Assembly (NCBI GenBank): GCA_003279655.1
Contig: QCHI01000007.1
Location: forward strand, 16,697 to 80,696
From: Prochlorococcus sp. AG-402-A21
GTDB lineage: Bacteria > Cyanobacteriota > Cyanobacteriia > PCC-6307 > Cyanobiaceae
Direction of reading: 5' to 3'
Length of the DNA: 64,000 nucleotides
The first letter of the stretch is position 1, and the number at the start of each line of letters is the position of its first letter. Position numbers and translations under genes: made by a program. Below, in pieces: positions 17,085 to 60,355 of the stretch. The notes beneath the pieces are model-generated. The model had not been told where the DNA came from. It did not search any database and was given only the letters and a program-made list of their open reading frames with translations.

Positions 17085-17270
17085 TGTACCAGTACTGCTT
17101 TGTTGGTAATGGCCTTCTCAAGTGCTCTGATCTGACTCTCTTTCGATATGGGGAAGCTGTCGTGAAAGTAACGTATACCAGCTAGTTCTGGAAACGAAGC
17201 TTCACTTTGAATCCCCCTCTGGTTTTTCCAGGTCGATGCTTCTTGGGCCTTACGGCAATGCGGTACTAAT
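17085..17270 (+). ncRNA. ssaA: 6S RNA (cyanobacterial 6Sa)
   Basis: Directly 3' of purK as in other cyanobacteria; closing stem AGTACTGC (17091..) with GCGGTACT (to 17267), plus inner pairing between the GGTAATGGCC and GGGCCTTACGGC regions. Confidence 0.82.
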
Positions 17271-57336: not shown

Positions 57337-58095
57337 ATGATAAAGTTGAAACCTTGGAATAATATTAAAATAAATGAATGTAATGAGCCATTAATTTCTA
57401 TTCCAAAATCCATATTTCGTCTTACACCTCATCCTTATATGTCGTTAGGTGCTCCATATGCAACTGGAGCAGATCCATGGGTTTTACGTAGAAGTGTTTT
57501 AAAAAGATTGATACTTGCGCAACAATACCTTTCCGAGATTAACCCCCAATTACAGTTGGCTTTGTTTGATGCTTGGAGACCTGTCTCTGTACAAAAATTC
57601 ATGTTTAATTACACTATTCAAGAAACTTGTAAGTTGAAGGGGATTGATATTAATGATCTTTCTGTCAAGGGAGGTATTAATGATGTAATTGAGGAAGTTG
57701 GCCGTTTCTGGGCAAAACCATCTTCTGATCCTCTTACCCCACCTCCCCACAGTACAGGTGCTGCTATTGATTTGACACTTGCTGATTTGACTACTAAACC
57801 ATTAGATCTAGGCGGAGAAATAGATTTTATTGGACCTGAATCTAGTCCTGACTTTTATAAGAAAGAATCTTATAAGATGCCTTATTCAAAATATCAGGTT
57901 TTTCAGGATAGAAGATCTCTTTTGTTTTTAGTTATGGAACAAGCTGGCTTTGTTCAACACCCAAATGAATGGTGGCATTTTAGCTATGGAGATCAGTTAT
58001 GGTCTTGGTTGACTAAGAAGGGTAATGCTATTTATGGAACTGCACTTGAGGTTAGCAAAGACATTACTCTTTCAGAACCAAGTTTAGTCACATGA
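57337..58095 (+). CDS. D-alanyl-D-alanine dipeptidase (VanX/DdpX, M15D)
   Basis: LFDAWRPVSVQKFMF, PPHSTGAAIDLTLAD, EWWHFSYGDQLW. Confidence 0.9.
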   Translation: MIKLKPWNNIKINECNEPLISIPKSIFRLTPHPYMSLGAPYATGADPWVLRRSVLKRLILAQQYLSEINPQLQLALFDAWRPVSVQKFMFNYTIQETCKLKGIDINDLSVKGGINDVIEEVGRFWAKPSSDPLTPPPHSTGAAIDLTLADLTTKPLDLGGEIDFIGPESSPDFYKKESYKMPYSKYQVFQDRRSLLFLVMEQAGFVQHPNEWWHFSYGDQLWSWLTKKGNAIYGTALEVSKDITLSEPSLVT

Positions 58096-60176
58096 TCTCC
58101 AAGACTAGATGAGGTTCCAGTATCTTTCCAGCTAAGAAATAAAGGCTCTAATGTCTTCTCTAGTTCATTGATAGACATCTTTTGTAGATATGGAGTCGCC
58201 AATCTTTGTAAATTAGTGCTACCACCAAGCCATAGTTGGTATTGATTTAGACCACTACCAACTAGAGCTAATTCTGCCATGTATGGGCGAGCACAACCGT
58301 TTGGACAGCCTGTAACTCTTACTAGTATTGATTTATTAATCTTAAGTCTTTTTAATTGAGTGTTTATTCGCTCTAAGAGTTCTGGTAAAAATCTTTCCGC
58401 TTCTGTCATCGCGAGCCCACATAACGGTAGAGCTGGACAAGCTATTGCATGTCTAGCAATTGGCTCGAGGCTTTCTGGATTATTAAAACCAATATTAATC
58501 AGAGCATTATTTACACTGGCTTTTTGATAATTACCAATATTACACAAAAGTAAATCTTGGTTGGGAGTTAAACGTACATCCAATGCGAATTTTTCAACTA
58601 TATTTCTGAGCTCTTTCTTGATATCTCCGGTAAGTCTACCTGATAATAGTGGTAGGCCAACAAACCATAACTTTTCAGATTGTTTATGCCAGCCTAAATA
58701 ATCTTCAAGGATTGTATCACCTTCGTTCCTCAAGGTACCAATCTCTTTCGTAAAATATTTTGTTAATAACTGTTTCTTAAACCATTCGACGCCCATGTCA
58801 TGCAAAACATATTTAAGTCTTGAGTGTCTTCGAGTTTTTCTATCTCCATAATCTCTTTGAAGAGCGAGAATAGATTGAACAAGTTCTAATATATATTTCC
58901 CTTCTACAAAACCAATGGGATCTGCTATCCTAGCAAATGTCGTATCTAAGTTGTGTGTCCTACCCATACCTCCTCCTACGTAGACATTACATCCTTCTAT
59001 AGCTCCTTTTGCATTTGTGAATGTCACTAGACCTATGTCATGAGTAAGAATATCAACAGAATTATCACCTGGCACTGTAGTTGCACATTTGAATTTTCTT
59101 GGTAAGTAGGTTGCTCCATATAAAGGTTCATTTTTGTCCCCACTAAAAACACCTGGATTTCGTTGAAGCTTTCTGTTCTTTTTGACTTCAGAAGTTGGCT
59201 TGATAGCATATTTCATCTCACCATCAACCCATAAATCAATGTAGGTTTTCTCAGCTTTTTGGGGCGATAAAACATCGGCAATATCATTAGCTAACTTTCT
59301 TGCAGCAGGATAAGATCCTTTCTCATATGGGGCCGCTGGAGCCATTACATTCCTGTTGACGTCTCCACAAGCCGCAAGGGTTGATCCCATTGACTTCACA
59401 ATTGTTGCTATTACTTCTTTAATATCTCCTTTTTTTATACCATGCATTTGAAAGCATTGACGAGTGGTCGCTCTAAGCGTTTTATTCCCTAGACGATCAG
59501 AGAGGTCATCTAAGGCTATAAAAAGGGGCCCAGGGACCAAGCCAGCTGGATTTCTGAGTCTCAGCATCATTTGCCAATCTTTACCTGTGCCTCCTCTTTT
59601 TCTATGTTCCCGATCATCTTGTTGATAACTACCATGGAATTTTAAAAGTTGCACAGCGTCGTTTGTAAAGTGATCACTGTCATTTAACAATTCACTTTGT
59701 AGGGGTTCATTTAGGTAATTACTATCAGCTTTAAATTGTTCGAATTTCGCTCTAGGGGAATTATTAGCTATGCAAGGTGAAGGAACTGTCTTTTCTATGT
59801 CTTCAATATTTTTATTTCCATTTTCCTTGTAATTCATTAGAGCTTCAATAGCTGCTTTACTGAATCCAGCATCTTTTAAATCTTTTTCTAAGTTTTTTGG
59901 AGATTCTTTTGAATTACTATTTTTAATAACCTCCAGTCTTATTCCCTTAGGTAAGGATTTATTGATCTGTTTGGCCTCTTCTTCTCTCAGCTTTTCATCG
60001 AATTTTTGTTGGATAGCTATTTCAGCTGAGCTTATGTTTTCTTCGGCTTCTTCTTTAGTGTTACCTATTTTTTTTACTACATCACATGTTCCAAAGGCAT
60101 CCCTTAATTTACCCCTCGGTACAGCAACCCTGAGATAAAATCCCGATCTTCCTGGTATTTGTATGATCTTAGGCAA
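58032..60176 (-). CDS. sir: Ferredoxin-sulfite reductase with an unusual N-terminal extension
   Basis: Siroheme/4Fe-4S cysteines CPALPLCGLAMTEAERFLPELL and VTGCPNGCARPYMAELALVG; core begins about residue 141. Confidence 0.93.
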   Translation of the reverse strand: MPKIIQIPGRSGFYLRVAVPRGKLRDAFGTCDVVKKIGNTKEEAEENISSAEIAIQQKFDEKLREEEAKQINKSLPKGIRLEVIKNSNSKESPKNLEKDLKDAGFSKAAIEALMNYKENGNKNIEDIEKTVPSPCIANNSPRAKFEQFKADSNYLNEPLQSELLNDSDHFTNDAVQLLKFHGSYQQDDREHRKRGGTGKDWQMMLRLRNPAGLVPGPLFIALDDLSDRLGNKTLRATTRQCFQMHGIKKGDIKEVIATIVKSMGSTLAACGDVNRNVMAPAAPYEKGSYPAARKLANDIADVLSPQKAEKTYIDLWVDGEMKYAIKPTSEVKKNRKLQRNPGVFSGDKNEPLYGATYLPRKFKCATTVPGDNSVDILTHDIGLVTFTNAKGAIEGCNVYVGGGMGRTHNLDTTFARIADPIGFVEGKYILELVQSILALQRDYGDRKTRRHSRLKYVLHDMGVEWFKKQLLTKYFTKEIGTLRNEGDTILEDYLGWHKQSEKLWFVGLPLLSGRLTGDIKKELRNIVEKFALDVRLTPNQDLLLCNIGNYQKASVNNALINIGFNNPESLEPIARHAIACPALPLCGLAMTEAERFLPELLERINTQLKRLKINKSILVRVTGCPNGCARPYMAELALVGSGLNQYQLWLGGSTNLQRLATPYLQKMSINELEKTLEPLFLSWKDTGTSSSLGDHVTKLGSERVMSLLTSSAVP

Positions 60177-60355
60177 TGGTACCTACACCGGTACCAACAC
60201 TGTATCATTTTTACGACTTGGTTAGTGCTTAATTGTTCAAATGAAACCATGAGAGAACAACGATCTATTCATTAAAGATTAAATTTTTTCTAGGACACAG
60301 AATGTAGAAGTAATTCAAATTTGATCTAATCTTGTTAAGAACATAAGGAAATTTC

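Follow-up and report, generated by a model that had tools for sequence, protein, structure and literature searches.

The ferredoxin-type assimilatory sulfite reductase (Sir) of Prochlorococcus sp. AG-402-A21 carries, ahead of its enzyme part, a segment that sequence comparisons identify as the N-terminal domain and linker of a picocyanobacterial family of tyrosine integrases (residues 1 to about 116). The relationship is one of homology and not of mere resemblance, and the extension is a genuine part of Sir that is under strong purifying selection. Comparison with integrase genes further indicates that the captured module comprises this head domain together with its kind of DNA sites, which are represented by a tandem repeat at the sir start codon. 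By analogy with several integrases, Sir is rather likely to bind its own promoter/start region and to regulate its own expression. In the following, the window denotes the entire stretch of contig QCHI01000007.1 that was analysed (64,000 nucleotides).

Homology of the Sir extension to tyrosine integrases

The fusion gene sir lies on the minus strand (58032..60176) and encodes a protein of 714 aa. The integrase-type N-terminal domain (arm-binding, DUF6538-like; residues 1-66, 59979..60176) is followed by a variable linker (residues 67-94, 59895..59978) and by a helical segment with the sequence LEKDLKDAGFSxxAIEAL (residues 95-116, 59829..59894), which in Synechococcus-type integrases directly precedes the core-binding domain. 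Next come a junction and a native-like Sir N-terminus (residues 117-140, 59757..59828), where the sequence SPCIAN... is common to unextended Sir proteins, and then the Sir core (residues 141-714, 58032..59756). The sulfite reductase part matches NCBIfam PRK13504 from residue 135 to 714 with 739 bits (cut-off, 457) and TIGR02042 with 727.5 bits, slightly below the cut-off of 731.5, and NIR_SIR domains were present in a Pfam scan. In the domain scan, the core-binding and catalytic domains of tyrosine recombinases were not detected in the fusion protein, and Sir stands directly after the head. The 3' end of sir overlaps a D-Ala-D-Ala-dipeptidase-like ORF on the plus strand (57337-58095) by 64 nt (58032-58095).

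The first-pass annotation of this DNA, whose coordinates and quoted N-terminal sequence were correct, had noticed a resemblance of the extension to a tyrosine-integrase N-terminal segment and had proposed an unusual domain capture by a metabolic enzyme. Both points hold. An integrase-type segment of the DUF6538 type heads Sir, and profile-profile comparison (hhalign) of the Sir extensions with integrase N-termini gave a match at 99.6% (E 1.8e-24) over residues 2-114. Similarly, sequence searches with the 140-aa extension returned integrase N-termini with E values down to 3e-11; the matched ORFs are approximately 424-454 aa long, and the two that were scanned whole have Phage_integrase and SAM-like domains. 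The match in G205 reaches as far as residue 114. Every residue that is invariant among the integrase domains is kept in Sir. Since the likeness extends over the helical segment, and hence up to the point where the core-binding domain follows in Synechococcus-type integrases, the capture ends at a domain boundary.

A search for DUF6538 (PF20172), which the first-pass annotation had proposed, succeeded at the level of the family: 13 of the 15 members of the domain alignment match it (best 7.6e-7), whereas the window extension alone does not. The gathering score of PF20172 (27) is not reached even by an intact integrase (22.3). As a single sequence, residues 1-140 had no significant match to Pfam, PHROGs or NCBIfam models, and automatic annotation would therefore miss the head. 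In an AF2 model from 25 sequences, residues 2-60 are predicted with pLDDT near 90 and follow the order beta-beta-(alpha)-beta-alpha, which is also that of integrase arm-binding domains; an AF2 run without an alignment was poor (pLDDT 42). No significant match was obtained with the better model by Foldseek against PDB and BFVD, or by sequence search of the PDB.

Tandem repeats, distribution and donor-type elements

Directly in front of the sir start codon stand two adjacent copies of a 12-bp repeat. Copy 2 (GTGTAGGTACCA, 60177..60188, minus strand) abuts the codon itself, and copy 1 (GTGTTGGTACCG, or GTGTAGGTACCG in most relatives) follows at 60189..60200 on the same strand. Within the genus, the tandem repeat shows 3.1% pairwise differences, compared with 21% and 29% in two stretches just upstream. 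The 1.67-Mb genome has a single GGTACC tandem, and in a profile search Sir was the only protein of that genome with an integrase-type head; the site therefore cannot be kept for an integrase acting in trans. The first-pass annotation made no mention of these conserved, arm-type-like tandem sites, although they point to a probable function of the capture.

Comparable repeats are found in the integrase genes. A start-proximal exact 8-mer at a period of 12-13 is present in 14 of 29 non-redundant integrase genes versus 20 of 597 control upstream regions (p 5e-12); a clear repeat is absent in about half of the surveyed integrase genes, mostly the more distant ones. The integrase repeats occupy the same position as that at sir and have other sequences, and the Sir site is not identical to the site of any integrase found. 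In eight of eight delimited elements, the start-proximal motif recurs near the far element end, where it lies no more than about 330 bp inward of a direct repeat of 21-41 bp; some of the copies in L193 and L198 are near-copies. It was not found in the interior of these elements, apart from one exception that is a chance-level 8-mer. Because the motif stands at both element ends and flanks the core sites, it represents arm-type sites, and the sir repeat is an equivalent, arm-type-like site. At the junction, several other genera have a GAAAA..ATGATGCCGTG-like sequence and the sir clade has GAAAAATGATACAGTG; the resemblance to the native sir start region is suggestive of the module having landed at the native sir start codon.

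The extension was present in all genomes of the same genus in which sir was found (n=30) and in one sister genome that belongs to another genus, AG-404-P15 (G081). A named scan for the extension returned only Prochlorococcus, mostly single-cell genomes of the AG-402/AG-409 type. Sir proteins of 51 other genera of the family lack it and start at about position 105-143 of the window protein; the few matches in other genera with an earlier beginning extend across stop codons. At 20 loci of other genera, where glyS and sir are arranged divergently, roughly 130-190 nt separate the glyS start from the Sir core; this distance is 600 nt in the window and approximately 650 nt in G081. The piece inserted at the sir 5' end amounts to only ~450 bp. 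All extension carriers fall in one clade of the Sir-core tree (support 99/97). The extension is lineage-specific and, on this tree, of one origin, which settles a comparison raised by the first-pass annotation, and other cyanobacterial Sir proteins are without it. The unextended sir genes of other genera (L135-L154) have a conserved block, ~TTTCGCTACGGTGGATTAG, between glyS and sir, and no such block could be recognised in the lineage that carries the extension.

In another Prochlorococcus genus, two genomes (G380 and G399; L069 and L074) have the same head on a Rieske oxygenase, and these are the only Rieske fusions of the head among 266 genomes. Here too a tandem repeat lies at the start codon, in a degenerate form in G399, and the protein's nearest relatives among the Rieske oxygenases of that genus match only from residue about 99 onward and lack the head. 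The heads of Sir and of the Rieske oxygenase may or may not share a donor lineage (p-AU 0.37 for a single clade). Additionally, five loci (L064, L068, L071, L073 and L075) have short ORFs of 92-253 aa with an integrase head and no catalytic domain, which could be decay products or stand-alone regulators.

The integrase elements are about 7-15 kb long and are located in the 3' end of the 6S RNA gene (ssrS/ssaA). At all six loci checked (L032, L193, L194, L197, L198 and L206), the 21-41 bp att core corresponds to the last ~20-46 nt of the 6S RNA. A tRNA as the integration site was rejected, as ARAGORN finds no tRNA in the element loci and the core is the 6S RNA 3' end. In the window, the 6S gene (17089-17270) contains the att core with no element alongside, and the GGTCGAT-containing att motif is present only at this gene, about 41 kb from sir. 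Judged by these positions and those in G002, the capture was probably an illegitimate recombination event, with the source being an element located at the 6S gene or close to it. No relatives turned up when IMG/VR was scanned with two integrases or when phage records were searched by tblastn with the extension, and the donors therefore look to be borne on chromosomal islands and not on phages. Searches of the open-licence literature on 6S RNA as an attachment site, on DUF6538, on integrase arm-domain fusions and on Prochlorococcus sulfite reductase brought up no earlier report.

Proposed autoregulation of sir and alternative explanations

In the favoured explanation, the start of sir in an ancestor of this Prochlorococcus lineage received the 5' end of an integrase gene. 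The captured piece consisted of two int-proximal arm-type sites, the start codon, the arm-binding domain and the linker, stopping just before the core-binding domain. Domain homology, the equivalent position of the sites, the single origin and purifying selection on both domain and sites are what the sequences show. Sir now possesses a predicted sequence-specific DNA-binding head, with candidate sites immediately ahead of the start codon of its gene. Most likely, Sir would bind the repeat and repress its own transcription or translation, which would place sulfite reductase under feedback control; repression is the presumed direction, and the control could be linked to sulfite or redox state. 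The integrases related to the head have the same layout, and autorepression is known for integrases with arm sites that overlap their own promoter; sir appears to have inherited the two halves of such a circuit. For instance, KplE1 intS and other integrases repress themselves from att sites that overlap their own promoter (PMC2951348). At sir, the repeat adjoins the start codon and may likewise overlap the promoter. A sigma-70 promoter scan at sir gave no match; the sequence TACAGT in the conserved block (60199..60204, minus strand) is offered as a possible -10 element, as a suggestion only.

Alternatively, the head could bind nucleic acid and mainly tether Sir to the nucleoid or act at many sites, which is considered rather improbable. 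Plant SiR is a bifunctional protein that compacts nucleoid DNA (plastid DCP68; PMC4154389), and the head belongs to a DNA-binding family. However, the sir site is almost unchanged among relatives and the genome has no second GGTACC tandem, which argues for one target, and the activity of plant SiR is independent of such an extension.

It is also improbable, and slightly more so, that the head no longer binds DNA and is kept for protein interaction, oligomerisation or Sir stability, the repeats being promoter or ribosome-binding sequence. The repeat does sit where a promoter or ribosome-binding site is expected, and purifying selection alone names no function. Against this explanation stand the joint conservation of the head and of the type of site that belongs to it, a repeat layout like that of the integrases, the invariance in Sir of the integrase-invariant residues, and the same pairing of head and repeat in the Rieske oxygenase.

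A non-functional origin, in which the head is a neutral hitchhiker or scar of a mobile-element event at sir, is very unlikely. The head does derive from a mobile-element integrase, but the selection data contradict neutrality. Within the genus, dN/dS (pairwise counting, pooled) was 0.056 for residues 2-45, 0.071 for residues 2-66, 0.15 for residues 67-94 and 0.076 for residues 95-116, compared with 0.084 for the Sir core and 0.52 for residues 117-132, so that values for the domain and the helical segment are as low as or below that of the enzyme core. Moreover, the head is present wherever sir was found in the genus, and the putative operator is conserved. The first-pass annotation had raised the possibility of an integration scar upstream of sir; this was rejected, as the att core is the 6S 3' end and none is present at sir.

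The reading frame through the extension is open in 30 of 30 genomes with a complete sir 5' end. Position 1 (60174..60176, minus strand; TTG, or GTG in two relatives) is the only start codon kept in all 28 sequences without indels, and the two extension sequences with indels remain in frame. An annotation artefact, with the real start downstream (e.g. at M114) and the extension outside Sir, can practically be dismissed, for although the start codon is TTG and the single extension sequence has no Pfam, PHROGs or NCBIfam match, position 1 alone is universally kept as a start, M114 is lost in three genomes (ATC or CTA there), dN/dS in the extension frame is low, and the profile-profile match to integrase N-termini is strong (E as above). 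The downstream start that had concerned the first-pass annotation is thus very unlikely; the conserved start lies upstream of the extension.

More broadly, it is an even question whether the 5' module of integrase genes (arm sites, start codon and arm-binding domain) is a portable self-regulation cassette that two unrelated redox enzymes, Sir and the Rieske oxygenase, have acquired and that makes them site-specific autoregulators. If this is the case, mobile elements give bacteria ready-made modules of operator plus repressor head. If the autoregulation of sir proposed above is correct, the sulfite reductase of a marine phototroph lineage uses a domain and an operator, captured together from a mobile element, to control its own gene by feedback. 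This would show how core metabolic genes can come under autoregulation in streamlined genomes that are poor in transcription factors. The proposal is directly testable, with a candidate operator of 24 bp that is unique in the genome and a captured segment of about 116 aa.

Comparison with known systems

BirA, PutA and NadR are enzymes that regulate their own genes via a fused or built-in DNA-binding domain, and Sir is likewise predicted to be its own regulator. The DNA-binding domains of BirA, PutA and NadR are not known to derive from a recombinase. In contrast to these enzymes, Sir appears to have acquired its domain together with the domain's kind of sites.

Compared by description only, the donor integrases fit the picocyanobacterial integrase family cluster158946, for which tRNA-Phe/Cys were proposed as integration sites (PMC10187409), whereas the att core here is the 6S RNA 3' end. 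Sir shares with these integrases the N-terminal domain, the linker and the start-proximal tandem repeats, but it lacks their core-binding and catalytic domains and occupies a fixed core-gene locus. As in KplE1 intS (PMC2951348), sites for the protein's own N-terminal domain are predicted to overlap the promoter/start region of the gene; unlike in that system, the controlled gene encodes a metabolic enzyme, and its repression is a prediction. Finally, Sir would resemble plastid sulfite reductase/DCP68 (PMC4154389) as a sulfite reductase that acts on DNA. However, the plastid protein has no such extension and compacts DNA non-specifically, whereas the predicted target of Sir is a tandem site at its own gene.
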